A program made the position numbers and the translations under genes. The notes beneath the pieces are model-generated. The model was not told the DNA's origin. It saw only the letters and a program-made list of their open reading frames with translations, and did no database searches. Below, piece by piece: positions 16,593 through 41,751 of a stretch of 46,412 nucleotides of DNA (its first letter is position 1; each line of letters opens with the position of its first letter). Origin of the DNA: Oscillospiraceae bacterium (GTDB lineage Bacteria > Bacillota_A > Clostridia > Oscillospirales > Oscillospiraceae); assembly GCA_017537045.1 (NCBI GenBank), contig JAFYLN010000043.1:1-46412 (forward strand), given 5' to 3'.

Positions 16593-17000
16593 TTAGTCCC
16601 TCCCCGTAATGATGGAAACTGCGTGACTCACACCGGGAATCGGAAGCCCCTGCTGCGTTGAGGTAGGGGAGAGCAGTGCACCCGTGCCACAGAATAGGAT
16701 GCGTTTTAATTTTCCATCATTGAGTTTGTTCAGAAGCTCGCCGCACAGGGTAATGGCGCTGCATCCGCAGCCGGAACCTCCGGCGTGAACGTCCTGAACG
16801 GTGTTGTCAAAAACCAGCGTGCCGCAATCGGTCAGCTTTCCTCCCAGTGGCAGATGCTTGCGTTTGCCCAGTTCCAGCAGCATTTCCTTTCCGAGCTGAC
16901 CCAGATCACCGGTGACGATCAGGTCGAAATCCTCCGGTTTTCGCCCCAAATCCTCCATATGCGCCTGTATGGTGTCAAATGCAGCCGGGGCGATTGTCAA
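16593..17000 (-). CDS. spoVAD: spoVAD, 3' fragment (codes the C-terminal 130 residues)
   Basis: The frame reads IAPAAFDTIQAHMEDLGRK..., then LTDCGTLVFDNTVQ, HAGGSGCGCSA and GTGALLSPTSTQQG, which is the C-terminal third of SpoVAD. The frame runs to 17000 at a TTG, but the first bases past 16991 belong to the inserted element and no RBS is near, so this piece is probably not made alone. The missing first 209 codons are at 41751-41125 on the same strand. Joining at the shared CCGGGGC gives ...MGAAMAP/AAFDTIQAH... in frame and 339 residues in all, the usual SpoVAD length. SpoVAD has a thiolase-like fold and binds dipicolinic acid for uptake into the forespore. Confidence 0.92.
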   Translation of the reverse strand: MTIAPAAFDTIQAHMEDLGRKPEDFDLIVTGDLGQLGKEMLLELGKRKHLPLGGKLTDCGTLVFDNTVQDVHAGGSGCGCSAITLCGELLNKLNDGKLKRILFCGTGALLSPTSTQQGLPIPGVSHAVSIITGRD

Positions 17001-17012
17001 GTATAGACCATA
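16985..17012. other. Left attachment junction (attL-like)
   Basis: Core CCGGGGC (16985-16991) lies in the spoVAD codons for Ala-Pro-Ala. Inside the element, TAGACCATA (17004-17012) is the exact inverted complement of TATGGTCTA (41102-41110) beside the right core. In the circular form the two lie equally far from a centre between the first two G of the core. Confidence 0.85.
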
Positions 17013-17335
17013 AAGTACCGGAAAAAGGAAGCTGCAGGGAGAATTTTTGAGTTTTGATACATTTCATCTGAAACAACTGATATACTGTTAACCAGCATAT
17101 TTCTCAGGTGCTTTTCCACAAGCAGCAGGAATCGAGTTGGTGGTAGGGGAGGTTGGATGATGAAAACAGGCAGCTAGTTAAAAAATACAATAAAATATTT
17201 TGCAGATTATTGTTGAATAACCATTCTTTTTGCCGGTTCCTGTAATTTGCAGCGGCACGGTGCTGAATCACGGCGAACGAATCCTGTGGACAAGCGCCTG
17301 AAAATATGCAATAATCAGGATAAAGGAAGAAAGAA
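16992..17335. other. Left-end non-coding region of the element
   Basis: 344 bases without a supported gene: the attP arm at 17004-17012, then AT-rich sequence. A weak promoter candidate, TGGACA (17287-17292), 17-base spacer, AATAAT (17310-17315), points at the Spo0A-C-like gene starting at 17336. I see no Spo0A-box-like site here. Confidence 0.5.
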
Positions 17336-17773
17336 ATGTCAAACAGAAAAGAAGAAACCTTGTATCATGCGATGTTTTTGGCGCAGCATTTAAATAAATG
17401 CGATCTCAAGGATGGACTGGTGTATATCCTCTTCGAACTGGATGTGGATAAGGGTCGGCTCGGCTACCACTACGTCAAAGATGCCATTTTACTGTTTCAT
17501 AAGGACCCGATACATACCCTGTTATCCGGAATCTATCAGAAAGTTGCTGAGAACATCGATCCGTTTATCAATTCTGAGTATATTGAGAAGAACATACGCG
17601 ATGTGATCGGCAAGTCCTACCGGGACTGCGAGCCCGAGATCTGGGCCTACTATTTCCCTGAAAAAGCAGGCAGAAAGCCGAGTAAACCCAATAACTACAA
17701 ATTTATTTCCAATATTTCCGCATTTATGGAATTGTGGCAGGCATGCTGTAAGGAGGCCAGTTATGAAATTTGA
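17336..17773 (+). CDS. Stand-alone Spo0A C-terminal-domain-like DNA-binding protein
   Basis: A 145-residue protein. Residues about 26-135 resemble the DNA-binding (effector) domain of Spo0A: ILFELDVDKGRLGYHYVKDAI fits the Spo0A stretch containing GYLYLREAI, then IYQKVAENI, YIEKNIRDVIGKSY (recognition-helix region) and the C-terminal PSKPNNYKFISNISAF, like KAKPTNSEFIAMVAD. No receiver domain is present, so it cannot be switched by phosphorelay in the usual way. It could bind 0A-type boxes on its own or compete with Spo0A (inference). RBS AAAGGAAGAAAGAA precedes the ATG. Its stop overlaps the next gene by 11 bases. It is the first gene inside the element's left end, and a divergent domain relative lies at 19102-19473. 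Confidence 0.7.
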   Translation: MSNRKEETLYHAMFLAQHLNKCDLKDGLVYILFELDVDKGRLGYHYVKDAILLFHKDPIHTLLSGIYQKVAENIDPFINSEYIEKNIRDVIGKSYRDCEPEIWAYYFPEKAGRKPSKPNNYKFISNISAFMELWQACCKEASYEI

Positions 17774-18593
17774 TAATGTAGCTGTTCTCCGGGAAAATCT
17801 GGAGCAGATGGAGACACAGCAGCTCGATGAAATGCTCCATATGCAATTGCGAAAAGACCAGCCGGACGGCCAGTTGATCCGCATGATCGGCAGCGTTCTG
17901 AGAGAGCGGGAACGTGACAGGCAGCCTGAAATCACACCCGAAATTCAGAAAGCCTGGGAACGGTATCAGAAATTAACGCAGCCGCCCACAAGAAAACCAA
18001 AATCTATGAGAAGTACGCTGGTAAAGGCAGCATCCATCATACTGGTTTTGCTTATCTTGGCGGCGCTTCTGCCCAGGGAAGCGGAAGCGGAGAGCTTCTT
18101 TGACAGGTTCATTGCATGGACTTCCGATGTGTTCTCCCTGCTCAGTCCCGTTGAAAAGGGAAAGCAACAGGATATATACGAGTTCCGAACGGACAACCCC
18201 GGCTTGCAGGAGGTCTACGACAAGGTCACCGAACTGGGCGTGACAATCCCGGTTGTTCCCTCGTGGTTTCTTGATGGGTATGTATTAAAATCGTGTAAAA
18301 TAACCGAAACTCCAACGAAAACGTACATGTCAGTTGTGTTTACAAACGGAGAATTAGATGCTGTTTATGAACTGAACGTATACAATGGTAATCTTACTTC
18401 TGCATACACGAAAGATGAAAATATTGTTCGTATACTTGAAATGAACAATATTGAGCATACCCTGATGCACAACAAGGATTTGTTGCTTGCGGTGTGGGAA
18501 ATAGAAAACATAGAATGTGCTATCAACATAGATTGTGAAGAGGACGAATTGAATCGGATTCTCAAATCAATCTATACGATGGAGGAGAACTAG
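17763..18593 (+). CDS. DUF4367-like single-pass membrane protein
   Basis: A 276-residue protein with a cytoplasmic N-terminus of about 80 residues, rich in Arg, Gln and Glu, a membrane helix at about 85-104 (VKAASIILVLLILAALL), and an outer domain. The pattern there, TELGVTIPVVPSWFLDGYVLKSCKI followed by beta strands (TYMSVVFTNGE, YELNVYNG), recalls DUF4367 and anti-sigma/regulator-type membrane proteins of Clostridia. RBS AAGGAGG lies in the end of the preceding Spo0A-C-like gene, which it overlaps by 11 bases, so both are translated together. A functional link between a small DNA-binding protein and a membrane protein is plausible: the membrane protein may hold or inform the regulator. This is inference. 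Confidence 0.65.
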   Translation: MKFDNVAVLRENLEQMETQQLDEMLHMQLRKDQPDGQLIRMIGSVLRERERDRQPEITPEIQKAWERYQKLTQPPTRKPKSMRSTLVKAASIILVLLILAALLPREAEAESFFDRFIAWTSDVFSLLSPVEKGKQQDIYEFRTDNPGLQEVYDKVTELGVTIPVVPSWFLDGYVLKSCKITETPTKTYMSVVFTNGELDAVYELNVYNGNLTSAYTKDENIVRILEMNNIEHTLMHNKDLLLAVWEIENIECAINIDCEEDELNRILKSIYTMEEN

Positions 18594-19938: not shown

Positions 19939-20832
19939 ATGAGTGGATTGCTTCGTAAACAGTTTGATGTCCTAACATGCATCGATCTGTATGGTTCCGA
20001 TATGAGTCAGCGTGTGATTGCTGAGATTACAGGTATGTCTGTGGGTTCTGTGAATCGTACAATTGCCGATTTGACCGAACAAGGATTATTGATGGATAAA
20101 AAACTGACTCCTGGGGCTTATGATAGACTTGAACCCTATCGCGTAAAGCGAGCTGTTTTTATCGCTGCAGGATTTGGATCCCGATTGGTACCAATTACGC
20201 TGAATACACCTAAACCTTTGGTTAGGGTGAATGGGCAACGGATGATTGATACACAGTTAGATGCAGTGATTGCAGCAGGAATTGAAGAAATTTATATTGT
20301 TAGGGGTTATCTGGGTGAACAATTTGATCAGCTACTTTATAAGTATCCTATGATCCGCTTTATTGACAACCCTTCTTACAATGAGGCAAACAACATTTCC
20401 TCTGCCATGTATGCCCGACACTTGCTACAGAATGCCTATGTGATGGAAGCGGATCTGGTGTTGTACAATCCCAAAGTGATTACCAAATATCAGTACACTT
20501 CCAACTATTTGGGTGTACCAGTGGAGAAGACCGATGACTGGTGTTTCAAGACCACTAAGAACCGCATAATTACAGCTCTAATGCAAGGTGGTGTGGACTG
20601 CTATCATGAGTTCGGTATTTCTTATTGGAATGCTGAGGACGGTGCAAAGCTTTGTGAGGATATTAAGAAGGTGTACGAGATGCCTGGCGGAAAGGAACGT
20701 TACTGGGATCAGGCTCCCCTGGAGTTCTGTAAGGAGAATTATCGTGTCGAGGTACGCTGTTGCACGTTTGATGATGTGATTGAGATTGATTCTTATTCAG
20801 ACTTAAAGAAATTGGATAGAACCTATCGATAG
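19939..20832 (+). CDS. LicC/PntC-type cytidylyltransferase with N-terminal winged HTH
   Basis: A 297-residue protein. Residues 1-65 look like a winged helix-turn-helix (QRVIAEITGMSVGSVNRTIADLTEQGLL). From 70 on it is a nucleotidyltransferase: VFIAAGFGSRLVPITLNTPKPLVRVNG, the substrate loop SYNEANNISSAMYA, the metal Asp in YVMEADLVLYN, and a C-terminal FGISYWN...YWDQAPLEF, close to pneumococcal LicC. LicC joins CTP to phosphocholine; the related PntC uses 2-aminoethylphosphonate. No choline kinase is near and an importer follows, which favours a substrate needing no kinase, such as 2-aminoethylphosphonate (inference). The HTH may make the enzyme its own regulator or be a structural relic. First gene of the 19939-24246 operon. 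Confidence 0.8.
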   Translation: MSGLLRKQFDVLTCIDLYGSDMSQRVIAEITGMSVGSVNRTIADLTEQGLLMDKKLTPGAYDRLEPYRVKRAVFIAAGFGSRLVPITLNTPKPLVRVNGQRMIDTQLDAVIAAGIEEIYIVRGYLGEQFDQLLYKYPMIRFIDNPSYNEANNISSAMYARHLLQNAYVMEADLVLYNPKVITKYQYTSNYLGVPVEKTDDWCFKTTKNRIITALMQGGVDCYHEFGISYWNAEDGAKLCEDIKKVYEMPGGKERYWDQAPLEFCKENYRVEVRCCTFDDVIEIDSYSDLKKLDRTYR

Positions 20833-20849
20833 GAAAAGGAGAAGTTATT

Positions 20850-21830
20850 ATGAAGAAAAAATTGATTTATGTACTGGCCATGCTGTTGATGCTTAGTACA
20901 ATTTTGTGCGGTTGCGGTGGTGGCAAAGAGTCTGTTCTGATTTACACCAGCGTAGAAGACTATGTGGTGGAGGATATGAATGCCCGCCTGAGCGAGCAGT
21001 TCCCCGATTATGACATCACTGTGGAGTATGTATCCACTGGCAATCATGCAGCAAAGCTGCTGGCAGAGGGAACCAATACTGAATGTGATATCACCTATGA
21101 TCTGGAATATGGTTATATGGAGCAGCTTGCAAATGCCGGTGTTCTGGCAGACCTCTCCGCCTATGACAAGAGCATCTACATGGACGATACCGTTGTCAGC
21201 GACAATTACCTGATTCAGTGCCGTGTAGGTGGCGCCATTATCCTGAACACCGAACTGCTGGCCCAGAAGGGTCTGGCAGAGCCCACCTGCTATGAGGACC
21301 TGCTCAAGAGCGAGTACGCCGGCATGATCTCCATGGCAAACCCCAAGTCCTCCGGCACTGGCTATATGTTCCTGAAGAGCCTGGTCAATGCGTGGGGTGA
21401 GGAGAAGGCTTTCGCCTATTTTGACGCACTGACTCCCAATGTGCTGCAATACACTTCCTCTGGCTCCGGCCCTGTCAACGCTCTGCTCCAGAGTGAGGCT
21501 GCCATCGGCTTCGGTATGACCTCCCACGCCGTGACCCAGATCAACGAAGGCGCGCCCCTGAAGGTTATTTTCTTCAGCGAAGGTTCTCCCTTCACCCTCT
21601 ATGGTCAGGGCATGATCGCCGGTAAGGAGACCCGTCAGTGCGTCAAGGAGATCTTCGATTTCCTGGTGAACACTTACAGCTACGAGCTCAACGAGAAGTT
21701 CTTCCCCGAGCAGATGTTCAAGGATGTGGTCTACAGCGTGGAGAACTATCCCCAGAATATCGTCTACAGCGATATGAGCGGCAATACCATCGAGGAGAAG
21801 ACCCGTCTGCTGGAAATGTGGAAGTACTGA
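20850..21830 (+). CDS. ABC importer substrate-binding lipoprotein (iron/phosphonate type)
   Basis: A 326-residue protein with a lipoprotein signal (MKKKLIYVLAMLLM, then LSTILCGC; probable acylated Cys22). The mature protein begins SVLIYTSVEDYVVEDM, like the FbpA/2-aminoethylphosphonate-binding class, with a C-terminal periplasmic-type fold (GMISMANPKSSGTGYMFL, AIGFGMTSHAVTQ). It lies outside the membrane, anchored by lipid, and delivers a small solute to the permease. RBS AAAAGGAGAAG precedes the ATG, 17 bases after the cytidylyltransferase. The close link to a LicC/PntC enzyme suggests the ligand is 2-aminoethylphosphonate or a choline-type compound rather than iron (inference). Confidence 0.85.
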   Translation: MKKKLIYVLAMLLMLSTILCGCGGGKESVLIYTSVEDYVVEDMNARLSEQFPDYDITVEYVSTGNHAAKLLAEGTNTECDITYDLEYGYMEQLANAGVLADLSAYDKSIYMDDTVVSDNYLIQCRVGGAIILNTELLAQKGLAEPTCYEDLLKSEYAGMISMANPKSSGTGYMFLKSLVNAWGEEKAFAYFDALTPNVLQYTSSGSGPVNALLQSEAAIGFGMTSHAVTQINEGAPLKVIFFSEGSPFTLYGQGMIAGKETRQCVKEIFDFLVNTYSYELNEKFFPEQMFKDVVYSVENYPQNIVYSDMSGNTIEEKTRLLEMWKY

Positions 21831-21862
21831 TTTTCTCCCATAAACGAAATTGAGGTATCGAT

Positions 21863-22639
21863 ATGGATAACATCAAACTGATCGTTCGCGATCTTGAAAT
21901 GGAGTTTGACAGAAAGGTCACGCTCAATAAGGTAAATTTCGAGGTTCGGGACGGAGAATTCCTCTCCATTCTGGGTCCCTCCGGCTGCGGCAAGACCACC
22001 ATTTTGCGAATTCTCATTGGCCTGCTGAAGCCTGTTGGTGGCAGTGTGGAGAAGAACGGTGTGGATATTACCCATATTTCTCCTGCGGAGCGCCGTATGG
22101 GCATCGTATTCCAGAATTACGCGCTGTTTGAGAATATGACAGTACTGCAGAATGTGGAATACGCTCTGAAGATCCGCAAGGAGAACAAAACCAAAGAGGC
22201 AAGACAGGAGATCCGCCGCAAAGCCATGGCGGTGATTGAGAATATGGGCCTTTCCGAGCATGTGGACAAGCTGCCCACAATGCTCTCCGGCGGTCAGCAA
22301 CAGCGTGTGGCCATTGCCAGAACGTTGATCCTGAACCCCGATGTAATCCTCTTTGACGAGCCCATGTCCGCGCTGGATGTGGCGACCCGTCTGTCCCTGC
22401 GTGCTGAGTTGAAGCGGATCCAGAAGGAATTCGGCACCACCATGATCTACATTACCCATGACCAGGAGGAGGCCTTTGCCATGTCCGACCGGATCATGGT
22501 CATGCGTGAGGCCAATATTGTTCAGCTGGATACACCAGAAAACATTATCGGTAATCCGGCGGACGACTATGTGAAGGAATTTGTACTGCAGAATCTGCAG
22601 ACGAAAATCGATTCTCTGATGAAGTATGTGAGGGTATGA
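21863..22639 (+). CDS. ABC importer ATP-binding subunit
   Basis: A 258-residue ATPase with Walker A GPSGCGKTT (about residues 37-45), Q-loop FQNYALFENMTV, signature LSGGQQQRVAIAR, Walker B VILFDEPMSALD and H-loop YITHDQEEAFAMSD. This is the pattern of spermidine/iron/phosphonate importer ATPases (PotA/FbpC/PhnT group). It is shorter than PotA because it lacks most of the C-terminal regulatory domain. It acts on the cytoplasmic side of the permease at 22636. The stop TGA overlaps the permease ATG (ATGA). It powers uptake of the ligand bound by the 20850 lipoprotein. Confidence 0.92.
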   Translation: MDNIKLIVRDLEMEFDRKVTLNKVNFEVRDGEFLSILGPSGCGKTTILRILIGLLKPVGGSVEKNGVDITHISPAERRMGIVFQNYALFENMTVLQNVEYALKIRKENKTKEARQEIRRKAMAVIENMGLSEHVDKLPTMLSGGQQQRVAIARTLILNPDVILFDEPMSALDVATRLSLRAELKRIQKEFGTTMIYITHDQEEAFAMSDRIMVMREANIVQLDTPENIIGNPADDYVKEFVLQNLQTKIDSLMKYVRV

Positions 22640-24246
22640 GCATGAAGCATGCACCCAATAACACAATGAAAAAGCCCATTGGACTGGGCAAAGCGGATAC
22701 CGTCAGATTGGTTCTTGCGCTGATCTTTATCTCCGCTGTGTTCATTCCTCTGATCCGGATGTTTGCTTACATGGATAGGGACAGCATCCGCAGAGTTGTC
22801 AGCTCTCCGAACTTTTTTACAGCCGTAACCAATTCCATTGTTTCAGCCGTGCTGGCTACCGTGGTTACGGTGATCGTAGCCTTTGCTCTGACCTTTTCAG
22901 TACAGCGTACCAATATCCGGCTCAAGGGTATTTTCGAGGTAATCTTTGTCCTGCCTATGCTGATTCCCTCCATCTCCTGCGGTATGGGTCTGGTCATTCT
23001 CCTAGGTAACAACGGACTGCTGACCCGCTTTCTGCAGCTAAAGAGCAGTATTTACGGTTTGCACGGCATCGTGATAGGCTCTGTGCTCTATGCTTTCCCA
23101 GTGGCCTATCTGATGCTTGCGGATGTTCTTCGATATGAAGACGGATCTCCTTACGAGGCGGCTCAGGTGCTGGGTATCCCAAAGTGGCGTCAGTTTGTTT
23201 CTATTACGCTGCCGTATCTGCGCAAGCCTCTGATCAGTGTAGTCTTCTCTGTGTTTACTATGATCATTACCGACTACGGCGTGCCGCTGATGGTGGGCGG
23301 AAAGTATACCACTATTGCCACGGTTATGTATCAGGAGGTTATCGGCCAGCTGGACTTCGGTAAGGGTGCAGTGTACGGCACTCTGCTGCTGATCCCTGCG
23401 GTTATCGCCTTTGTGATCGACCTTCTGAATAAAGATTCCGCCAAGTCTGGTTTTGTCACCAAGTCCTGCACCCAGTCCAACAGTGCCGTGTCGAAGTCCG
23501 GTGCCTATATCTGTTGCATCACGGTGTCCGTAGCTACGTTGCTGCCAGTTATTGCCTTTGTTCTCCTTGCATTTACCGTGGACTACCCCAATAATCTGTC
23601 CTTCTCTTTGGTAAATCTGAGCAAGGCTTTTAAGCTGAAGGCGGGGAATTATCTGTTAAATTCTATTCTCATTGCAACTTTTACGGCCATTGCCGGTGTG
23701 GGTATTTCCTTTATGACTGCCTATATGTCTGCAAGAATGAAATCCTCCACATCCCGCTTTCTCCATCTGTCTGCCATGACCTCTGCTGCCATTCCTGGTG
23801 TGGTTCTGGGTCTTTCTTATGTGTTGACTTTTAACCGTACACCGATTTACGGTACGATTCTGATTCTGGTGGCTGTCAACATCATCCACTTTATCGCGTC
23901 TCCGTATCTGATGATGTACAACTCCCTGTCCAAGATCAATGAAAACTTAGAGGGTGTTGCCCACACCATGGGTATCAAGCGATCCTATATGATTCGGGAT
24001 GTGTTTATCCCTCAGTGTAAGTACACACTGCTCGAAATGTTCTCCTATTTCTTTGTGAACTGCATGATGACCATTTCTGCTGTGTCCTTCCTTGCAACCA
24101 CAGCTAATAAGCCTGTCTCGCTGATGATCAATCAGTTCGAGGCACAGATGCAGTTAGAGTGCGCGGCAGTTGTATCTCTGATGATATTGATTGCCAATCT
24201 AATGATCAAGGGTACTATCTATATCATTAAGAAGCGTAATAGATAG
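22636..24246 (+). CDS. ABC importer permease, two fused MetI-like halves
   Basis: A 536-residue inner-membrane protein with about 12 helices in two homologous halves, as in FbpB and 2-aminoethylphosphonate permeases. EAA loops are visible: YEAAQVLGIPKWRQFVSITLPYLRKP in the first half and LEGVAHTMGIKRSYMIRDVFIP in the second. A full transporter therefore needs one permease and an ATPase dimer. The frame opens at the ATG at 22636, overlapping the ATPase stop; a second ATG at 22642 has better RBS spacing (AGGG seven bases upstream) and may be the true start. Last gene of the LicC/ABC operon, ending at a strong terminator. Confidence 0.9.
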   Translation: MSMKHAPNNTMKKPIGLGKADTVRLVLALIFISAVFIPLIRMFAYMDRDSIRRVVSSPNFFTAVTNSIVSAVLATVVTVIVAFALTFSVQRTNIRLKGIFEVIFVLPMLIPSISCGMGLVILLGNNGLLTRFLQLKSSIYGLHGIVIGSVLYAFPVAYLMLADVLRYEDGSPYEAAQVLGIPKWRQFVSITLPYLRKPLISVVFSVFTMIITDYGVPLMVGGKYTTIATVMYQEVIGQLDFGKGAVYGTLLLIPAVIAFVIDLLNKDSAKSGFVTKSCTQSNSAVSKSGAYICCITVSVATLLPVIAFVLLAFTVDYPNNLSFSLVNLSKAFKLKAGNYLLNSILIATFTAIAGVGISFMTAYMSARMKSSTSRFLHLSAMTSAAIPGVVLGLSYVLTFNRTPIYGTILILVAVNIIHFIASPYLMMYNSLSKINENLEGVAHTMGIKRSYMIRDVFIPQCKYTLLEMFSYFFVNCMMTISAVSFLATTANKPVSLMINQFEAQMQLECAAVVSLMILIANLMIKGTIYIIKKRNR

Positions 24247-26760: not shown

Positions 26761-26785
26761 GTCTACCTCCATGGTTAGTGTTTCT

Positions 26786-26792: not shown

Positions 26793-26804
26793 ATTTCGGC
26801 AGTT

Positions 26805-32400: not shown

Positions 32401-32411
32401 GAGGTGATACT

Positions 32412-33215: not shown

Positions 33216-33238
33216 TCAGCAACAGATGGAGGAGTTTT

Positions 33239-34618
33239 ATGAAAAGAATGCTGGAGAAAAAAAAGAACCCTTTGTTTGCTGTACTGATAACCTTCCTGCT
33301 TGGTTATTTTTTAATTTGTGATTTGGATATCCGCTATATTTATATTTATGCGTTGCTTGGTGTATTTTTGTGCATAAATATATTTACTGCGGGTATTTGG
33401 CGCCCCGGTGTGAAACTGGGGACAACGCTTCGTACAATTTGGAACCGGGTCACTCCTATCAAGATGTGTTTTTTCTTTATTGTGACGTTGATAACGATTC
33501 TGACTTTATTGCCTTCTTCCAATAAGTCTCATTTGACCATCTCGTTAATGATTTCTATGCTAATTTTTGCAGCATATTTGTTGTTCATGGAACCCGGAAA
33601 GGAAAGCATTCGCTGTGCTTTCTGCGCTATCCATGTGATGTCAATTCTGTTTACTTGTTACATTATTGTGGTCATGCTCTGGCCAGATCTTTTCTGGGAG
33701 AACATCTATCTTCATTTAAGTTCGGTTTCTCAGGAGCAGGCAGCACTGCTGATTCCGATGGGATATGGCGTTCCTCTTGGCGGATCATCCACATATACGG
33801 ATTATATTCTCACGATTGCATTGCTTGTTAATCTCAGTGAGGTGTTTGTTGAGGGCATCCACAATAATCGGAAACGCTTCTGGTTTGTTGTTATTTCTTC
33901 TGCATTTTATGCCGCAGGTATTTTACTGATGGGACGCAGATCTGAAGTGCTGGCTATGGGCGTTGCAGGTTTGCTCATGCTGATTCTTCATGCTGCTCCT
34001 ACCTGCAAAGGGGACACTTGGCGCAAGTTTTCTTCTCTGCTGATGATTTTTGTTCTGTTTGTGGTGATCCTTCTGCCTTTTGTGGCTGGCGGTTATATGC
34101 AGCGCTATTCCAAATTAATCGAAGCAATATTTCCTCAATATGTTTTGAACACAGAGGATAAAATGCAGGAAATCCCCATTGATGCAAATCAACTTACAAG
34201 CGGCCGTTTGATTCTGTGGAAACAGGCACTGCAACTGTTTAAGGAAAAACCTGTTTTCGGTATCGGCTGGGAACAGTTCATGACCCAGAATACCTACGAA
34301 CATGAAGTGCATAATACGTATCTGCAATGGCTATGCGAGAGCGGAATTGTTGGCTTTATTTTACTTATGATTCCGACGATGCTTATGTATGCCATGACGA
34401 TCAAACGGACGATCCGTTATCGCCGTAAAAATAGAGAGGTTCCTTTTGGCATTAAGCAGATGAATTTTGTCTCTCTGGGAATGCATACATTTTTGCTGGC
34501 TGTGAATCTGATTGATCCTGCATATTATCATTTGAATTACTTCTGCTTCTACGCGCTGGTTATTTGTCTTGAGGATACGGCCGGCCGTCTGGAACTGGAA
34601 TCTACCGTAAGGAGCTAA
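33239..34618 (+). CDS. O-antigen-polymerase/ligase-like membrane protein (Wzy type)
   Basis: A 459-residue protein with about 11-12 membrane helices. The large outer loop near the C-terminus carries SGRLILWKQALQLFKEKPVFGIGWEQF and HEVHNTYLQWLCESG, the pattern of O-antigen ligase/polymerase (Wzy/WaaL) proteins. It probably polymerises lipid-linked repeat units outside the membrane. I start at ATG 33239, with ATGGAGGAG upstream; an in-frame TTG at 33212 overlaps LicD 2 without an RBS. Lower GC than its neighbours, as usual for polymerases. Confidence 0.85.
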   Translation: MKRMLEKKKNPLFAVLITFLLGYFLICDLDIRYIYIYALLGVFLCINIFTAGIWRPGVKLGTTLRTIWNRVTPIKMCFFFIVTLITILTLLPSSNKSHLTISLMISMLIFAAYLLFMEPGKESIRCAFCAIHVMSILFTCYIIVVMLWPDLFWENIYLHLSSVSQEQAALLIPMGYGVPLGGSSTYTDYILTIALLVNLSEVFVEGIHNNRKRFWFVVISSAFYAAGILLMGRRSEVLAMGVAGLLMLILHAAPTCKGDTWRKFSSLLMIFVLFVVILLPFVAGGYMQRYSKLIEAIFPQYVLNTEDKMQEIPIDANQLTSGRLILWKQALQLFKEKPVFGIGWEQFMTQNTYEHEVHNTYLQWLCESGIVGFILLMIPTMLMYAMTIKRTIRYRRKNREVPFGIKQMNFVSLGMHTFLLAVNLIDPAYYHLNYFCFYALVICLEDTAGRLELESTVRS

Positions 34619-34623
34619 AAACT

Positions 34624-35679
34624 ATGTCCCAAAGACATTACTCAGAAGCGAATGAAGCGCTTCTTAATATTGATTTTCTTCCTCTGGAGAATCTGACCGG
34701 AAAGCTAATTTTTGTCACCGGTGGTACCGGGCTTGTGGGTTCCGGTCTGATCCGTGTCCTTCTGAGTGTGAACAGGGAAAACAATCTGGGTCTAATGGTA
34801 TATGCGCTGGTGCGAAATGTGCAGAAGGCCAAAGATATGCTGCCCTCTGACAGTGCGTTGATCCTGATCAAAGGCGATTTGGAGCATCTGCCGGAAATCA
34901 ATGTACCCATTGATTATGTAGTGCACAGCGCAAGTCCCACCGCAAGTAGCTTCTTTATGGAGCATCCTGTGCAGACCGTTAAGTCTGCTGTCTGCGGTAC
35001 GATGAACATACTGGATATGGCAAGAGAAAAGCAGGTCAGCAGCTTTGTTTACCTGTCCAGCATGGAGGTCTACGGCGAAAATGATACGGATGAGCCGCTG
35101 TATGAGGATCATCCGGTCTTGGCAAAGCCTGTCTCTATCCGTAGCTGCTACCCTCAGTCGAAGCTGCTGTGCGAAAATCTTTGCGTGGGCTATGCCCATG
35201 AATATGGTCTTTCCTGCAAGGCCATCCGTCTTGCACAGACCTTTGGACCCGGTGTGCCCAAGAATGATAACCGTGTGTTCGCGCAGTTTGCCAGATCTGC
35301 CATTCAGAAAACCGATATTGTTCTCCAAACTCCCGGTCTGACCAAGCAAACTTATCTGCACACCATGGATGCGGTCACTGCGATCCTTACGGTCTTGCTG
35401 AAAGGCGAGGCAGGTCAAGTCTACAATGCGGCAAATCCCGGAAATTACTGCTCCATTCGTCAGATGGCGGAACTGGTAGCCCAAAAACTGGCCAACGGTG
35501 AAATCGCGGTTACCGTAAATACTTTTCCCGAAGCTGCTGCGAAATACCCCCCTACCCACAAGTGGAATCTGTCTGCGGATAAGCTGATGGCTCTGGGATG
35601 GCATCCTACTGCGGATTTGGAACAGATGTACCGCAGCTTGATTGCGGATATGATGGAGAATAACGGATCAAAGGATTAA
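34624..35679 (+). CDS. NAD-dependent epimerase/dehydratase (extended SDR)
   Basis: A 351-residue extended short-chain dehydrogenase. The Rossmann loop is GKLIFVTGGTGLVGSGLIRVLL (about 27-48). Further along come VHSASPTASSFFMEHP, the active-site Ser-Ser in SSFVYLSSMEVYGE and the Tyr-x3-Lys in SCYPQSKLLCE (about residue 175). Such enzymes change the sugar of a nucleotide sugar (4-epimerase, 4,6-dehydratase or decarboxylase). The PTASSFFMEHP and SCYPQSK forms recall UDP-glucuronate-decarboxylase-like members, but the reaction is not certain. RBS AAGGAGCTAAAAACT. Six bases after the polymerase stop. Confidence 0.85.
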   Translation: MSQRHYSEANEALLNIDFLPLENLTGKLIFVTGGTGLVGSGLIRVLLSVNRENNLGLMVYALVRNVQKAKDMLPSDSALILIKGDLEHLPEINVPIDYVVHSASPTASSFFMEHPVQTVKSAVCGTMNILDMAREKQVSSFVYLSSMEVYGENDTDEPLYEDHPVLAKPVSIRSCYPQSKLLCENLCVGYAHEYGLSCKAIRLAQTFGPGVPKNDNRVFAQFARSAIQKTDIVLQTPGLTKQTYLHTMDAVTAILTVLLKGEAGQVYNAANPGNYCSIRQMAELVAQKLANGEIAVTVNTFPEAAAKYPPTHKWNLSADKLMALGWHPTADLEQMYRSLIADMMENNGSKD

Positions 35680-35681
35680 CT

Positions 35682-37139
35682 ATGAGTAGCATCAGAAAAA
35701 ACTTTATTTTAAATACATTGTTTCAGGTGCTGCGGCTTATTTCCCCGCTGGTAGTCACCCCTTACGTTTCACGTGTTTTGGGCGTGGATGGTATTGGTAC
35801 ATTCAGTTATACCTATTCCATTGAGTATTATTTTTCAATGTTTGCGGTGCTGGGAACTACAGCCTACGGTGCCAGAGAAATTGCCCGGCTTCGGGATGAG
35901 CCGGAGGCAATGAGTCACCTGTTTTGGGAAATATGGCTTATGGCATTCACAACCTCTCTAATCAGTATTATCTGCTGGAGCATTGTGGTGTTGAATGGCG
36001 GTGCTCACCGCCTTTATTACGCAATCCTTACTTTCTACCTGCTGGCAGCTATGTTTGACATTTCCTGGTTTTATACGGGACTCGAACGGTTTCCCATTAT
36101 TGTTGCTCGCAATATTGTACTGAAACTGATTGAGATCATGTTTGTATTCCTGTTGGTGAAAAAAATGGAGCATCTGTATATCTATTTCCTGATTATGGCA
36201 GGTGGCACTTTTTTGGGAAATGTTTCTCTATGGATCGGAATGGGAAAGAATCTGACCAAGGTAAAGTGGAGCACCCTTCGCCCTTACCGACATCTGAAGA
36301 ATACCATGGTGTATTTTCTTCCCACCATTGCTACTTCCGTCTATTCCGTGCTCGGTAAAACCTTGATTGGTGCCATTACCAAGAGTGATGCGGAGAATGG
36401 TATCTATGAGCAGGCCACAAAGATTATTGATGTTGTCAAGGCTGTAACCATTGTATCTCTGAATACCGTTCTTGGTCCCAGGAATTCCTACCTCCACAAG
36501 CAGGGAAAATTGGAGCAGATTCGCACCAATATACATGTATCTATAGATTTTACTCTGATGATGAGCATCGGTGCGGTCTGCGGTATTATTGGTGTGGCAG
36601 ATCTGTTTGTTCCTTTGTTCTTCGGCGCGGGTTATGAACCGGTGACAAATCTGCTGCGATTTCTGTCTCCGTTGCTTGTGAGCATTGCCATCAGCTATAC
36701 TATTGGTTCCCAGTATTATGAGCCTGTTGGATTGCGGTTTAAGAGCGCCAGATACTTGATGGTGGGAGCCTGTTGCAGTGTTGTGCTGAATCTGATTCTG
36801 ATTCCCGTTTGGAAAAGTCTTGGTGCAGCTATCGGTTTCCTGATTTCTGAAACTATAATCGCTGTACTGTATCTGATCAACTGTGACGGATATATAAATC
36901 TGAAAGACCTGATCCGGATCAGTTGGAAAAAATTTGTTGCAGGCAGCATTATGGCAGCGATGCTTCTGTGGCAGTCTGCGTTTATGCACCCTGTGACAGT
37001 GAATGTGATTCTGTTGGTGGTTGTGGGCATGGGTATCTACTTCGCGTGCCTGCTTCTGCTGGGCGACCGGATGGTTCTGTCAGTACTTAAAAAAGGTTAT
37101 GCCAAAGTTGCTGATTTTGTGTGTAAGAGAAAGGGATGA
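35682..37139 (+). CDS. Polysaccharide flippase (Wzx/MOP family)
   Basis: A 485-residue membrane protein with about 12-14 helices, starting NFILNTLFQVLRLISPLVVTPYVSRVLGVDGIGTFSYTYSI, the hallmark of Wzx flippases. It carries lipid-linked repeat units to the outer face for the polymerase at 33239. The start follows the epimerase stop by two bases with a weak RBS, so translation is coupled. The stop overlaps the next ATG. Together with the initiating transferase and polymerase it shows a Wzx/Wzy-type pathway. Confidence 0.9.
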   Translation: MSSIRKNFILNTLFQVLRLISPLVVTPYVSRVLGVDGIGTFSYTYSIEYYFSMFAVLGTTAYGAREIARLRDEPEAMSHLFWEIWLMAFTTSLISIICWSIVVLNGGAHRLYYAILTFYLLAAMFDISWFYTGLERFPIIVARNIVLKLIEIMFVFLLVKKMEHLYIYFLIMAGGTFLGNVSLWIGMGKNLTKVKWSTLRPYRHLKNTMVYFLPTIATSVYSVLGKTLIGAITKSDAENGIYEQATKIIDVVKAVTIVSLNTVLGPRNSYLHKQGKLEQIRTNIHVSIDFTLMMSIGAVCGIIGVADLFVPLFFGAGYEPVTNLLRFLSPLLVSIAISYTIGSQYYEPVGLRFKSARYLMVGACCSVVLNLILIPVWKSLGAAIGFLISETIIAVLYLINCDGYINLKDLIRISWKKFVAGSIMAAMLLWQSAFMHPVTVNVILLVVVGMGIYFACLLLLGDRMVLSVLKKGYAKVADFVCKRKG

Positions 37140-38056
37140 ATACTATGAGAATTGAGATCCCCGAATCCTTTTACCAAGAAGAAGTCCGCTGTGATTATAC
37201 TATTTCAACAAAGATGAAGAAGGTATGGGCAGAAGAATTGAAACTGTACGGAATCTTCCAGGATATATGCGATAAGCGCGGAATCCATTGCTTCTGGGCA
37301 TATGGCAATCTGTTGGGGGCTGCCCGCCATCAGGGGTTTATCCCATGGGATGATGACATCGATGTTTTCGTGTCCCGTAAAGATTATGAAAAGCTTTGTG
37401 AAGTTGCAGCGGAGGATTTTGAGACACCTTACTTCTTTCAGAATGACCGTACCGATCCTGGTGCCCACATTGCATTCGGCAAGCTGCGCAACAGTATGAC
37501 TACTGCGATTCTAGATTTTGAAGCCCCCAGTCGATATAAGTATAATCAGGGTATTTTTCTGGATATCTTTCCTCTGGATAATGTGCCGGATGATCCTGAG
37601 GAACTGGCGATATTTACAAAGGAGATTGCTTTCTGGAAACGTATGACTCAAAAATGGGCTAGAATGTTTGATGCACGAACCTTCTATTTCGGCCGTAATT
37701 GGATGCGAGCTACGATTCCATTTATGCTGATAGCGAAGGGAATTGTCAAATTACTGAGGATTCCAAACATTCCCTGTCGCATACTTGAGAAGACTATGCA
37801 GCGTTATAATGATCAGGAAACTGAATGTGTCTGTATGCTTGGCCTTGGTGAGGTCAAACCCTACCCCAGATCCTGCTTTGATGATACAGTTATGCTTCCA
37901 TATGAATTTTTGCAGGTTCCTGCACCCGTAGGATACCTAAAGATGCTGGATATCGACTATGGTAACTGGCATCAGTTTGTCCGCGGTGCAGCTGGGGGTA
38001 ATATGCATGAAGGCATGACCTACGATACGGAACGTCCCTACACAGATTACTTATGA
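37136..38056 (+). CDS. LicD-family phosphotransferase 3
   Basis: A 306-residue LicD protein. The core is CFWAYGNLLGAARHQGFIPWDDDIDVFVSRKDYEKL, followed by a conserved GIFLDIFPLDNVPDDPEEL region absent in the same form from the other two, and a C-terminal part that ends with PYEFLQVPAPVGYLKMLDIDYGNW. This longer form is close to the canonical LicD of phosphocholine transfer (pneumococcal LicD1/2 are of similar size). The start overlaps the flippase stop by 4 bases (ATGA). It directly precedes the TarI-like gene, hinting at use of its CDP-alditol (inference). Confidence 0.88.
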   Translation: MNTMRIEIPESFYQEEVRCDYTISTKMKKVWAEELKLYGIFQDICDKRGIHCFWAYGNLLGAARHQGFIPWDDDIDVFVSRKDYEKLCEVAAEDFETPYFFQNDRTDPGAHIAFGKLRNSMTTAILDFEAPSRYKYNQGIFLDIFPLDNVPDDPEELAIFTKEIAFWKRMTQKWARMFDARTFYFGRNWMRATIPFMLIAKGIVKLLRIPNIPCRILEKTMQRYNDQETECVCMLGLGEVKPYPRSCFDDTVMLPYEFLQVPAPVGYLKMLDIDYGNWHQFVRGAAGGNMHEGMTYDTERPYTDYL

Positions 38057-38070
38057 AAGAGGGCTATTCT

Positions 38071-38787
38071 ATGAAAAAGGTGGCAGTTATTTTTGCTGGT
38101 GGTGTTGGTCAGCGTATGACCAATTCCACAAAACCAAAGCAGTTTTTGGAAGTGAATGGTAAACCTATTCTTGTATACACGTTGGAGAAGTTTCAAACCC
38201 ACCCTGATATTGACCATGTTGTATTAGTCTGCGTGAGGGATTGGATCGATTATGCAAAGATGCTGATCCGGCGCTATGAGCTAACCAAAGTGGAAACAGT
38301 TATTCCTGGAGGTAGCAACGGTCACCAGTCTCGATATCTGGGATTGAAAAAGACACGGGATCTTTATGGCGATTGCATGGTTTTGATTCACGACGGCGTT
38401 CGCCCTCTTATTGACCATAAGACGATTACCGATTGCATCGAAAGTGTTGAAACTAAAGGTAGCGCAGTTGTAGGCACATCCTCTACAGAAACTATTGCTG
38501 TGGTTAAATCTGATAGTGAATGCAAAATTATCCCTAGAGAGCAGTGTGTTTTACTCCGAGCACCACAGTGTTTCAGACTGGGTGAAATTATTAGACTTTT
38601 TGACCAGGCAGAAGAGGAGGGGATTGTGGATTGTATTGATGCAGCTACGCTGATGCAGTATTATCAAAAAAATATTATCATTATCAATGGCCCCCCGGAA
38701 AACATTAAGATTACCACACCATTGGACTTCTTTGTGTTCAAAGGCATACTGGAGATACAAAACAGCAAGGAAGTTTTTGGTCTATAG
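38071..38787 (+). CDS. TarI/IspD-like cytidylyltransferase
   Basis: A 238-residue enzyme that joins CTP to an alditol or erythritol phosphate. It begins KKVAVIFAGGVGQRMTNSTKPKQFLEVNGKPILVYTLEKF, then WIDYAKMLIRRYELTKVETVIPGGSN, HDGVRPLIDHKTI and the end NGPPENIKITTPLDFFVF, closest in pattern to TarI (ribitol-5-phosphate cytidylyltransferase). IspD for isoprenoids is less likely in this context. I start at the ATG at 38071, which has GAGGG seven bases before; an in-frame ATG at 38053 overlaps the LicD stop but lacks an RBS. No TarJ-type dehydrogenase is seen; the aldo/keto reductase at 28770 may take that role. Last gene of the glycan operon. Confidence 0.85.
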   Translation: MKKVAVIFAGGVGQRMTNSTKPKQFLEVNGKPILVYTLEKFQTHPDIDHVVLVCVRDWIDYAKMLIRRYELTKVETVIPGGSNGHQSRYLGLKKTRDLYGDCMVLIHDGVRPLIDHKTITDCIESVETKGSAVVGTSSTETIAVVKSDSECKIIPREQCVLLRAPQCFRLGEIIRLFDQAEEEGIVDCIDAATLMQYYQKNIIIINGPPENIKITTPLDFFVFKGILEIQNSKEVFGL

Positions 38788-39005: not shown

Positions 39006-40697
39006 CTAGTTGGAATATACCATCCCAACCGCATCCCGATTCATCTCCAAATACTCAACCAGCTGCTCGTACTCGTCCCGGAAGTTGAGTTCGACTTCGA
39101 TCCGGTTCTGGTCATAGACCCGAATCTCTTTGACGAGTTCCACCAGCATAGGACGGGTCAGCTCGGTAATATTCCCATACTTTCTGAAACTGGAAAGAAA
39201 GGCGTTTTCCTGATTCATGCCTTGCGCGTACTGCTTTGCGGTACTCTCGAGGCTTTGCAAGGATTCGTCCAATCTTTCCAGTTTTTCGTTCAGATTGACC
39301 TTGATATTCAGATACTCCTGCTGGGTCAGAATGCCGCTTTTCCAATCAGGATACAGATCAGCCATGGCGCGCAGGCATTTTTCACGCTCCGCCCGCTGCT
39401 GGGCCAGCAGACGCTGTAGACTATCTGATTTTGTTTTTCGATTGGAGCTGCTGTTGATTTGCACCAGCAGCTTTTCATATTCGACACAGGCGGCAACAGT
39501 TGCCTGCAGCAGGGTGAGCACCGCGTTTTCGATGCGGTCGACCCGCAGAGAACCGCGGGTGCAGCCGCCGGGCTGCATCTTGTTGTTGGTCACGCAGCGG
39601 TAATAGTGATAGGTGCCATAGGTGTGCCGGTTGGTCTTTCGTGACATGATGCGCCCGCATTTTGCACAGCGGACGAGACCTGCCAGCAGATGCACCTGGT
39701 TTTGTGCCGGTGGCTTGCGGATATGCTTGCCCAAAAGCGCCTGCACGTTAGCGAATGTGTCCGGATCAATGATCGCCTGATGTGTCCCGGTTACCCTGAT
39801 CCAATTTTCCTTCGGAACGGCTCTGCACTGATGGATCTTATAGCTGACGGTGGTGTTTTTTCCCTGAACCATATTTCCGATGTACATTTCATTGCGCAGG
39901 ATCCGCCGCACGGAACTGTCCGGCCACAGACCGTCATTTTTCTTGCCGGCAGGATGACGGTAATTACAGCCTTTCAACTTTTTGTACGCAGAGGGATTCG
40001 GGATGCCCATGGCATTCAATTCCTTGGCGATACCCATAATGCTGGTACCGGAGAGGAATTTGTCGAAGATCATCCGCACCACAGGGGCGGTTTCCTCGTC
40101 CACGATCAGCTTGTGACGGTTCTCAGGATCTTTCAGATAGCCATAAGTAGGAAAGGAGCCAATAAATTTCCCCTGCTGCCGGTTCATGTTCAACGTGCCC
40201 CGAACATTGACGGAGGTAGTGGCCGCGACGCTTTCATTGATGACGTTCGTAACACCAACTGAGATCAACTGTGTCGCCGCATTCATGGTTCCGGATGCCG
40301 TGTCAATACCGTTATTGAGGGCAATAAAGCGCACGCGCAGCCGCACAAACACGTCATCCAGATACCGCCCGCCCTCAGATGCGTTACGGCAAAAACGGGA
40401 AAGATCCTTCACAATGACGCAGTTGACATTGCCGGAATAGATATCGTCCATCATCCGCTGAAAACCGGGGCGGTCAAAATTTGTGCCGCTCCAGCCGTCG
40501 TCCACGTAAAAATCATTCAGCGCAATATCAGGATGCAGCTTCAGCCACTCTTTTAAAATCTCCCGCTGGCTGGTGACGGAATTGGACTCCATTTTGTCGC
40601 CATCATCACGGGAAAGGCGGATGTACAGTGCGGCTTTCCAGAGAAACACAGGCTGTTGCGGCGGTGCCATATAGGCAGCATATTTCGTTCCGTTCAT
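39006..40697 (-). CDS. Large serine recombinase (integrase/excisionase of the element)
   Basis: A 563-residue enzyme. The resolvase domain holds the nucleophile Ser29 in LYIRLSRDDGDK, QRE, and VKDLSRFCRNASEGGRYLD. A recombinase domain (MGIAKELNAMGIPNPS...) follows, then a zinc ribbon (VRCAKCGRIMSRKT...CVTNNKMQPGGC) and a coiled coil (about 450-510), used in synapsis. All parts look intact. Such enzymes join attP to attB and, with a directionality factor, reverse the reaction. RBS TGGAGGAG is five bases before the ATG. It lies 427 bases inside the right end of the island and points inward, the usual arrangement. It resembles the recombinases of sporulation-gene intervening elements (SpoIVCA class). 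The target is the spoVAD core CCGGGGC (inference from the junctions). Confidence 0.93.
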   Translation of the reverse strand: MNGTKYAAYMAPPQQPVFLWKAALYIRLSRDDGDKMESNSVTSQREILKEWLKLHPDIALNDFYVDDGWSGTNFDRPGFQRMMDDIYSGNVNCVIVKDLSRFCRNASEGGRYLDDVFVRLRVRFIALNNGIDTASGTMNAATQLISVGVTNVINESVAATTSVNVRGTLNMNRQQGKFIGSFPTYGYLKDPENRHKLIVDEETAPVVRMIFDKFLSGTSIMGIAKELNAMGIPNPSAYKKLKGCNYRHPAGKKNDGLWPDSSVRRILRNEMYIGNMVQGKNTTVSYKIHQCRAVPKENWIRVTGTHQAIIDPDTFANVQALLGKHIRKPPAQNQVHLLAGLVRCAKCGRIMSRKTNRHTYGTYHYYRCVTNNKMQPGGCTRGSLRVDRIENAVLTLLQATVAACVEYEKLLVQINSSSNRKTKSDSLQRLLAQQRAEREKCLRAMADLYPDWKSGILTQQEYLNIKVNLNEKLERLDESLQSLESTAKQYAQGMNQENAFLSSFRKYGNITELTRPMLVELVKEIRVYDQNRIEVELNFRDEYEQLVEYLEMNRDAVGMVYSN

Positions 40698-40716
40698 TTT
40701 TCTCCTCCATTGGGTG

Positions 40717-40962
40717 CTAACATTGCGTCATCAGGTCAGCCAACGCTGCCGACAGGCTGCGGTTTCCGCCGAACGTTACTTTGACGATCAGATCATCCAC
40801 CCGGAATAAATACGGATTTCTGACCTGCTCCATGTAACAGTCCAGCCGGGCAGGCAGCGGCAGGGCAGGGGATATGGCCACATCTTTTAAATCAGTCAAG
40901 CCGTCAGCATTGCAAGTCAGAATATCAGCCTGACGGCAGCAGCGCAGCATTTCGCTGGTCAT
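40717..40962 (-). CDS. Small protein encoded next to the serine recombinase
   Basis: An 81-residue protein 19 bases upstream of the recombinase on the same strand, so co-transcribed. Its second half, RNPYLFRVDDLIVKVTF, followed by SLSAALADLM, resembles small proteins often seen beside clostridial site-specific recombinases (recollection, not searched). It has two Cys in RCCRQ and one at the C-terminus. RBS AAGGAG lies ten bases before the ATG. Role unknown; being first in the recombinase operon and nearest to attR, it is a candidate regulator or directionality factor (inference). The resolvase itself shows no obvious excision control elsewhere in the element. Confidence 0.6.
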   Translation of the reverse strand: MTSEMLRCCRQADILTCNADGLTDLKDVAISPALPLPARLDCYMEQVRNPYLFRVDDLIVKVTFGGNRSLSAALADLMTQC

Positions 40963-41025
40963 TGGTTCACCACTCCTTGATTGGGATTATGTCCAGAAAG
41001 AAAAAGTCATAGACATCTGTTCTAA

Positions 41026-41751
41026 TCAAATAATGGTGTCTCTGCCTTGATTTTTTGCATGATCATAAAAAAATTTCAAAAAAATAACCATACCAACATG
41101 GTATGGTCTAAGTTTATCACTTTCCGGGGCCATGGCAGCGCCCATATTGTTGGCATCCTTAATTCCGAGATCTGTTACGGTGCCGATGGTACAGCATTCG
41201 ATACGCGGCCCCGTGCCGGATGAGCAAACCAGCGCAGCTCCGGCACCTGTGACAGTCCATTGAGCCGTAGGTGTGCGCTGACCGCCGTAGCCCAGTGGAA
41301 AACGGTACTGCCGCTCCGAGGAAGCGAAGTGCGACGATGTCATGGCAGCTACTTTATCAGCAAAGCCACCGCCGACAACCATGGATGCAATCAGCAAACT
41401 CTCTGCCATGGTAGAGCAGGCACCGTACAGCCCCAGATGCGGAATTCCTGTATTGCGTAAGCTGAAAGAAGATCCGATGCACTGGTTCAGAAGGTCACCG
41501 GATAACACCAGTTCCAATTCTTTTTTCTTCATGCCGGCTTTTTCCGCCAGCTTTTCCAGCGCCATCTGCTGCATACGCTTTTCGGCCTGCTCCCATGTTT
41601 TCTGTCCGAAATAGGTGTCCTGCGATGTGACATCAAAAGTATGCGCCAGCGGCCCTTCGGATTCCTTTTTGCCTGCGATGCTTGCCCAGTGCTGGATCAC
41701 AGGCATCTGCGGTAGCACAAAGCTTTGTTTCCCCCGTTTGTTGATTGCCAA
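41026..41751 (-). CDS. spoVAD: spoVAD, 5' fragment (codes residues 1-209, then a 33-residue foreign tail)
   Basis: The frame reads GKQSFVLPQMPVIQHWASIAG, GPLAHTFD, SGDLLNQCIGSSF, YGACSTMAESLLI, TSSHFASSERQYRFPLGYGGQ and DANNMGAAMAP, the first two-thirds of SpoVAD. At 41124 it runs into the element and ends after a foreign tail (ESDKLRPYHVG...) at 41026. I choose the TTG at 41751: it follows AGAAGGTG, makes a 339-residue protein with the 3' piece, and lies just downstream of a sigma-G-like promoter, whereas the ATG at 41778 overlaps the promoter's -10. The truncated product lacks the C-terminal third including HAGGSGCGCSA, so it is not expected to be functional until the element leaves. Confidence 0.92.
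   Translation of the reverse strand: MAINKRGKQSFVLPQMPVIQHWASIAGKKESEGPLAHTFDVTSQDTYFGQKTWEQAEKRMQQMALEKLAEKAGMKKKELELVLSGDLLNQCIGSSFSLRNTGIPHLGLYGACSTMAESLLIASMVVGGGFADKVAAMTSSHFASSERQYRFPLGYGGQRTPTAQWTVTGAGAALVCSSGTGPRIECCTIGTVTDLGIKDANNMGAAMAPESDKLRPYHVGMVIFLKFFYDHAKNQGRDTII
41102..41130. other. Right attachment junction (attR-like)
   Basis: Core CCGGGGC (41124-41130) is in the spoVAD codons. The arm TATGGTCTA (41102-41110) inside the element is the inverted partner of 17004-17012. Partly overlapping it, CCATACC-AACAT-GGTATGG (41088-41106) forms a further inverted repeat upstream of the recombinase operon and may be an operator. Confidence 0.85.

Follow-up and report, generated by a model that had tools for sequence, protein, structure and literature searches.

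The interrupted spoVAD gene

The DNA analysed here, hereafter the window, is the 46,412-nucleotide contig JAFYLN010000043.1 of an Oscillospiraceae bacterium (assembly GCA_017537045.1), and the subject of the analysis is its sporulation gene spoVAD, which was found as two pieces on the reverse strand (41751-41125 and 16988-16593) with 24,139 bp of other DNA between them. The features at the split are as follows.

41125..41751, reverse strand: N-terminal half of spoVAD (N half), TTG start at 41751, PF07451 positions 1-204; crossover at the CC of the Pro209 codon (41127-41126) by junction comparison
16593..16988, reverse strand: C-terminal half of spoVAD (C half), PF07451 positions 200-328; crossover CC at 16988-16987 by junction comparison
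16989..41127, no strand: island between both crossover points, 24,139 bp; missing from loci L161 and L162, where the flanks are contiguous
16235..16591, reverse strand: gene of the SpoVAC/SpoVAEB family directly downstream of spoVAD (PF03862, 1.2e-38)
39006..40697, reverse strand: large serine recombinase of 563 amino acids with Resolvase, Recombinase, Zn_ribbon_recom and DUF4368 matches; closest solved chain TnpX 2MHC
40717..40962, reverse strand: DUF6870 protein of 81 amino acids (PF21757), directly upstream of the recombinase; candidate directionality factor

That a 24-kb recombinase-bearing element splits spoVAD had been claimed in an earlier note on this DNA and is confirmed here. In searches with the PF07451 (SpoVAD) profile, the open reading frame (ORF) at 41026-41847 on the reverse strand matched positions 1-204 and the ORF at 16593-17000 on the same strand matched positions 200-328. 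Joining of the halves at the Pro209 codon yields a protein of 339 residues, and in the end-to-end alignment that had been proposed as a check, residues 7-332 aligned to residues 5-329 of the solved SpoVAD 3LMA. Uninterrupted spoVAD genes with the same neighbours were found in related genomes: in L161 (genome G137) and L162 (genome G300) the left and right flanks of the window are contiguous across an intact gene, with 77% identity and without the island. The split was judged real because the joined protein aligns with 3LMA, because L161 and L162 are uninterrupted and because many other genomes are split at the same codon and with the same island ends (arms). Outside this contig, the source organism may hold a second spoVAD copy.

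The earlier note was right in its coordinates, in the repeat CCGGGGC at both junctions (16985-16991 and 41124-41130), in the spacing of 24,139 bp, in the in-frame reading MGAAMAPAAFDTIQAH and in placing a complete large serine recombinase at the right end. TnpX 2MHC was the best of 12 PDB matches to this recombinase. The 7-bp repeat was rejected as significant by itself, as 7 copies are present in the window compared to 5.1 expected by chance; its weight comes from its position and not from its frequency.

The island at the Pro209 codon has the properties by which intervening elements are recognised: a sporulation gene is cut, precise removal leaves it in frame, empty sites exist and the island carries its own recombinase. 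Known intervening elements are skin (in sigK), gin (gerE), SPbeta (spsM), phi3T-like elements (kamA) and the spoVFB and spoVR elements, and with those of the skin, gin and SPbeta type the island shares a cut spore gene, a site-specific recombinase of its own, a short crossover repeat and in-frame rejoining (accessible parts of PMC6957869 and PMC5595907). No report of spoVAD as an integration site was found in the open-access literature searched, most subscription papers lying outside that scope, which agrees with the earlier note; the proposal that spoVAD is a site of such an element is supported and can be widened to a recurrent site of one clade of serine recombinases. The main point was overlooked at that time: SpoVAD is a member of the forespore sigma-G regulon, unlike the products of nearly all known interrupted genes. 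As far as the accessible parts of the papers go, C. difficile has spoVAC-spoVAD-spoVAE in its sigma-G regulon (PMC3789822), SigG directs the production of SpoVA proteins in the forespore of B. subtilis (PMC5629000), and almost all reported intervening elements lie in mother-cell genes (PMC6957869). Upstream of spoVAD in the window, a sigma-G-like string ACATA-N17-CATACTA was found with a score of 0.89.

Recurrence and maintenance of the split

A clade of TnpX-like large serine recombinases, usually with an adjoining DUF6870 gene, occupies the same spoVAD codon in many Clostridia. A recombinase-alignment scan of a genome collection, of which the best 80 of 593 confirmed loci were taken, and two scans of a viral collection, which contributed 23 loci, together provided 103 recombinase loci, and a search with the joined SpoVAD detected a spoVAD half starting or ending at the split site in 22 of them (L028 and L029 being identical DNA). 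Among the 27 genomes behind the chosen loci, 19 hold an N and a C half and no full copy, three hold one half only and one gave no match. A viral origin was considered and rejected: in the viral collection 22 loci with relatives of the recombinase were seen, one of them (L001) linked to spoVAD. L001 (IMGVR_UViG_3300023371_002967), filed as viral, carries the recombinase and a spoVAD C half and is thus probably the end of an island and not a virus.

Several individual genomes show unusual arrangements. The island of G019 carries a full spoVAD of its own adjoining the C half (L047, 4816-6345), as if it complemented the host; its identity with the two halves of the host gene is 82% and 86%. In G022 (L056, L130) a stretch of 685 bases is identical between a joined gene and a split N half, and next to the joined gene the match to the recombinase stops at residue 390; this joined spoVAD may be a repaired copy or a misassembled or chimeric contig. 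G006 and G010 look like binning mixtures: L028 and L029 match without a difference over 21,635 bp, and G010 has a full copy with 48% identity to its own C half. One N half, two C halves (L115, L221, L222) and two recombinase loci (L036, L038) were found in G026, which points to a strain mixture or to more than one island. In G011 (L146) the N half has the opposite orientation to the C half, with the two about 5 kb apart on one contig and with the recombinase between them, consistent with an inversion or a misassembly.

The prevalence of the split was assessed at three levels. When the order was sampled evenly (147 genomes, 133 matched), 8 genomes were split at the site, 124 had a full gene and 1 was assigned otherwise; the 8 include G012, the centre genome, G003, which had been found before, and three genomes whose arms differ (G082, G125 and G098). 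A class-wide search with a junction pattern, which recovers 40 of 49 known junctions, found none among 390 genomes besides the centre. Furthermore, three genera were surveyed, which had been picked for holding a split genome, so that their rates are not those of random samples: the genus of G016 comprised 11 split, 41 full and 1 other (53 matched among 61), the genus of G014 3 split and 5 full of 8, and the genus of G023 26 split, 23 full and 4 unclassified (53 matched among 60), which corresponds to 26 split species among the 49 classifiable ones. Set aside before counting were G440, G458, G461 and G464 (genus of G023), G415 (genus of G016) and G055 (order draw), while G425, G468 and G473, from the surveys of the genera of G014 and G023, were counted as full despite an additional partial SpoVAD match. 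No full copy beside the halves was seen in the split genomes of the even order draw and of the three genus surveys. Overall the split is rare, and it is common in some genera. The different arms of G082, G125 and G098 (L134-L137, L140) are flanked by genes that resemble core genes, and no serine recombinase was recognised within 6-8 kb on either side; judging from these flanks, their splits may come from another recombinase or from a large rearrangement.

In eight cases, with distances of 4.7 to 34 kb, both halves lie on one contig in the same orientation. Rejoining gave an in-frame reading through GAAMAPAA in all 42 genomes for which both halves were fetched. None of the 109 fetched halves (53 N, 56 C) has a stop between the edge of the hit and the crossover, a count that is somewhat favourable, as badly decayed halves are harder to detect; the profile searches flagged a few stops within matches (e.g. 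in G003, G020, G367, G437, G470 and G477), none of them in the half itself where it was fetched. The ratio of nonsynonymous to synonymous substitution rates (dN/dS) was equal for the halves and for intact genes: the median over 116 pairs of N halves was 0.068, that over 85 pairs of C halves 0.062 and that over 44 pairs of intact genes from two of the genera 0.066, with pairs of less than 78% or more than 99.5% protein identity or with saturated dS left out.

Much of this purifying selection could predate the insertion, and therefore the co-residence of island and gene was examined. Three islands within the genus of G016, those in G370, G408 and G365, have the N-proximal genes and the recombinase end in common. 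Between G370 and G408 the DNA identity is 91.7% in the N half, 92.1% on the N side of the island, 87.6% on its C side, which includes the recombinase, and 91.8% in the C half; the corresponding values between G365 and G408 are 84.0%, 79.2%, 79.0% and 84.7%. The dS of the recombinase is 0.62 compared to 0.45 and 0.41 for the spoVAD halves in the former pair, and 1.31 compared to 1.04 and 1.00 in the latter. Recombinase dN/dS was 0.054-0.067 in the three computable pairs, and the spoVAD halves of this co-diverging lineage have values of 0.024-0.045. In G016, with the same set of N-proximal genes, co-residence is less tight, because the recombinase (67-69% identity) has diverged more than the SpoVAD halves (84-94%). 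The divergence of island and halves has thus run in parallel across at least three species of one genus, and because they co-diverged, spoVAD and the recombinase were constrained while the gene was interrupted.

Junctions, promoter strings and cargo

Comparison of the junctions across the family placed the crossover at the CC of the proline codon, the part common to all compared arms. At the N-side junction the host sequence ATGGCnCC is followed by island DNA with TGnTAnnnT and ACCATA, and at the C-side junction island DNA with TTATGGT...TTGACA is followed by the host sequence CCnGC. The half-sites are alike at TG and ACCATA, as expected of recombinase sites, and unlike at the -35 and -10 boxes. 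An excised circle would bring TTGACA to a distance of 17 nt from TGnTAnnnT, which is predicted to create a promoter TTGACA-17-TGnTAnnnT. Of 53 arms on the C side, 42 have TTGACA; of 49 arms on the N side, 46 have TG and 46 have TAnnnT. All of these parts occur together in 32 of the 40 paired genomes. The counts exclude G082, G125 and G098 with their other arms and junctions cut by contig ends. In the window the predicted promoter would be directed into DUF6870 and the recombinase; in other islands the first gene behind it encodes, for example, a Gp49-family protein (G003), TnpV (G023) or a ParA-type ATPase (G074). The elements concerned in the window are:

16995..17000, reverse strand: TTGACA, -35 half of the putative circle promoter, at the C-side island end
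41111..41119, reverse strand: TGATAAACT, extended -10 half of the putative circle promoter, at the N-side island end
41077..41107, reverse strand: terminator-like hairpin with a trailing T run, a short way inside the N-side island end; noted by eye from the sequence
40985..41014, reverse strand: sigma-F-like string GTCTA-N15-GGACATAATC upstream of DUF6870, score 0.85, reached by 7.8% of control windows

Upstream of the DUF6870-recombinase pair, a sigma-F-type string with a score of at least 0.85 is present in 17 of 33 spoVAD-linked loci and in 7.8% of 774 GC-matched control windows taken from the same loci (binomial p 4.6e-11), the best case being GTATA-N15-GGTAAAAATT in L145. Recombinase loci without a tie to spoVAD have such strings in 8 of 46 cases. 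Strings of the sigma-G, -E, -K and -A type were not enriched upstream of the recombinase operon in the 33 spoVAD-linked loci, and sigma-H-like strings, at the cut in 10 of these 33 and in 17 of 46 other loci, were rejected as not specific. DUF6870 directly precedes the recombinase in 25 of 30 spoVAD-linked loci, with 4 of the other 5 having no upstream DNA, and, among recombinase loci at large, in 87 of 114 (with some overlapping stretches, and with many loci that have no spoVAD tie); it was assigned to the recombinase module because it also precedes recombinases without such a tie. By its position, DUF6870 is a candidate recombination directionality factor.

The cargo of the island comprises the following genes.

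17336..17773, forward strand: protein with a Spo0A-type DNA-binding domain (PF08769, 3.6e-11)
19939..24246, forward strand: MarR-type domain with nucleotidyltransferase, then a transporter resembling 2-aminoethylphosphonate transporters (best NCBIfam matches PhnS2, PhnT2 and PhnU2, all under the curated cut-offs)
24311..26793, reverse strand: DltB-like MBOAT acyltransferase and a 329-amino-acid protein without Pfam match
27040..27879, reverse strand: tyrosine recombinase, adjoining a 27-bp perfect inverted repeat (26805-26831, 27011-27037)
28070..38787, forward strand: glycan locus with sugar transferase, transketolase pair, three LicD, O-antigen ligase/polymerase, epimerase, flippase and IspD-like cytidylyltransferase

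The earlier description of this cargo as unlike phage remnants stands as far as a PHROGs scan of ten island ORFs goes, in which the two recombinases alone gave matches (the remaining island ORFs were covered by Pfam); as a distinction it does not hold, since gin in gerE is likewise without phage genes (accessible part of PMC5595907). No relaxase was found among the island ORFs of the window scanned with Pfam, and no tRNA for a tRNA-type attachment site was found by ARAGORN in the window. The 27-bp inverted repeat (26805-27037) encloses 179 bp with a TTGACA/TATAAT-like promoter string directed toward the DltB-like gene at 25300-26793, and beside the tyrosine recombinase this segment is likely an invertible, phase-variable promoter inside the island. 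The Spo0A-type protein might link the island to the entry into sporulation. Spo0A C-terminal domains are enriched in elements of gut Firmicutes, in which spoVAD also occurs as cargo, a matter separate from its splitting (accessible part of PMC6907783). The MarR/nucleotidyltransferase fusion and the 2-aminoethylphosphonate-like transporter beside three LicD proteins would perhaps fit a phosphonate- or phosphocholine-decorated glycan.

In other islands the cargo varies. LicD and IspD-like proteins occur again in G365. The G016 lineage has a hexapeptide transferase, GlmM, GlmS and a Polysacc_synt_2 protein, the island of G017 has beta-galactosidase and galactokinase-type proteins, the 4.7-kb island of G012 has a chemotaxis-type sensor, and that of G002 has a relaxase and MobC. 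Retention of the island through essential cargo is unsupported, as 4 of 5 genomes with glmM and glmS in the island have a second copy of each elsewhere.

Predicted excision during sporulation and its alternatives

Programmed excision in spore formers has been accounted for by the fate of the mother cell, which is a dead end: the element is removed in that cell and kept in the genome of the spore. A forespore gene lacks this safeguard, and an excised island would therefore be expected to be lost, which poses the question of how a gene of the germ-line cell can stay interrupted without loss of the island or the spore. The reading preferred here, with a probability of roughly 0.62, is that the island of the TnpX-like recombinase in the Pro209 codon leaves during sporulation, likely in the forespore, and that the halves rejoin into a working gene. 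In the proposed course, the forespore would make DUF6870 and the recombinase from sigma-F-type promoters, and both proteins would recombine the two junctions, restoring spoVAD ahead of its transcription under sigma-G. The circle would then build the TTGACA-17-TGnTAnnnT promoter over its joined ends, and it would reintegrate, probably at outgrowth; these last two steps are the least certain. Reintegration would explain the persistence of the island in the germ line. There is strong indirect evidence that spoVAD is reassembled in split hosts; the cell type, the timing and the reintegration are inferred. A more extended version is tentative and, in our estimate, doubtful: a reversible germ-line switch, in which sigma-F activates the recombinase operon in the forespore, the island leaves spoVAD, the spore carries the circle and the repaired gene, the circle promoter drives reinsertion at outgrowth, and spoVAD serves as a dock for loci.

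A number of observations weigh against excision in the forespore. In the organism of the window, the excision, the circle and the joined gene are predictions from the sequence. Four of the 27 genomes (G006, G010, G019 and G022) hold a full spoVAD besides a half, and G082, G125 and G098 are split at codon 209 with no such recombinase in the 6-8 kb read. The sigma-F consensus was picked after inspection of the sequences, the loci are related, and at the stricter score of 0.90 the strings are left in 6 of 33 loci and 2.3% of controls, the 33 including L033, L034, L036, L038 and L051, tied to spoVAD only at the level of the genome, and L025, tied by recombinase similarity only; the window's own string is weak. 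DUF6870 accompanies recombinases without a spoVAD tie too, and its structural model (mean predicted local distance difference test score 77) matched no PDB entry at an E value of 0.001 or lower. The nearest gene behind the circle promoter is reversed in several islands. A sigma-K-like string upstream of spoVAD in the window scores 0.89, equal to the sigma-G-like one. Concerning the hosts, 34 of 41 split genomes, in assemblies of untold completeness, have a near-full SigG-like match (at least 344 bits), 1 of 41 passes NCBI's sigG cut-off, and alpha/beta-type small acid-soluble proteins were seen in only 24 of 41.

The last of these counts would also fit a plain mobile island that disrupts spoVAD in hosts with spores poor in dipicolinic acid or without spores, where excision would serve transfer only and intact halves would reflect recent insertion. 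Horizontal movement is evident from recombinases that are 98% identical in G002 and G008 with N halves of SpoVAD at 68%, and 83% compared to 50% in G003 and G007; the recombinase and SpoVAD trees match only partly, the G002 island has its relaxase and MobC, and the split is rare across the class. However, a disrupted gene is at odds with the 109 fetched halves that show no stop, with the co-divergence of island and halves through at least three species at dN/dS values of 0.024-0.045, with a recombinase likewise under purifying selection and with the 26 split species among 49 in one genus, and we regard this explanation as unlikely.

Less probable still is a restoration of spoVAD that takes place, as with skin, either in the mother cell or ahead of asymmetric division, in hosts that use SpoVAD outside the forespore or early. 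The precedents excise in the mother cell (accessible parts of PMC6957869 and PMC5025042) and the sigma-K-like string would suit this course, whereas in two species the spoVA genes are part of the sigma-G regulon and neither sigma-E nor sigma-K strings are enriched upstream of the recombinase operon. It is also conceivable that the halves function as a split protein without any excision of DNA. The fold of SpoVAD is thiolase-like and consists of two similar halves, so that fragments might associate; yet a start codon with a preceding Shine-Dalgarno-like motif was found in only 6 of 55 C halves as opposed to 29 of 53 N halves, and separate genes would leave the kept recombinase unexplained, which makes this very improbable. 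An assembly artefact, finally, is hardly credible: many of the relatives are metagenome assemblies, and the split in the window was judged from the assembly, but the same codon, arms and recombinase clade recur across independent assemblies, and the eight single-contig cases agree in orientation, while in one further case, G011, the halves are opposite.

Among the closest known systems, the elements of the skin, gin and SPbeta type lie nearly all in mother-cell genes, unlike spoVAD, which is in the forespore sigma-G regulon of the studied species; the window's cargo consists of glycan and transport genes, and its excision is so far a prediction. Tn4451 and Tn4453 resemble the island in that TnpX is the closest solved relative of its recombinase. 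To go by the title of Lyras and Rood from 2000, the circle junction of Tn4451 reportedly forms a promoter reading toward the recombinase, which is what is predicted here; in contrast to both transposons, the island has a fixed target codon in a spore gene and no relaxase among the window ORFs scanned, though the G002 island has one. In ICEclc and ICEKp1, excision also brings a promoter to the integrase gene (accessible part of PMC13023037), but their promoter is whole at one end, whereas here the -35 and -10 boxes would come from different ends. With the fdxN element and its recombinase XisF of cyanobacterial heterocysts, named among developmental elements in the accessible part of PMC6957869, the island shares a serine recombinase and the rejoining of a developmental gene, although the window's recombinase matches the XisF model far under its cut-off; heterocyst elements are excised in a terminal cell, while spoVAD likely acts in the germ-line cell.

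A vertically kept, recurrent insertion in a gene of the forespore regulon breaks the logic of the mother cell as a dead end, and the codon concerned is a conserved docking site for islands, several of them with surface-glycan loci. Genomes with two spoVAD fragments should not be called non-sporulating for that reason. If the proposed course is true, the germ-line cell itself would be rearranged and then restored in every spore cycle, and gut Clostridia would exchange surface-sugar and other loci via the spoVAD dock.

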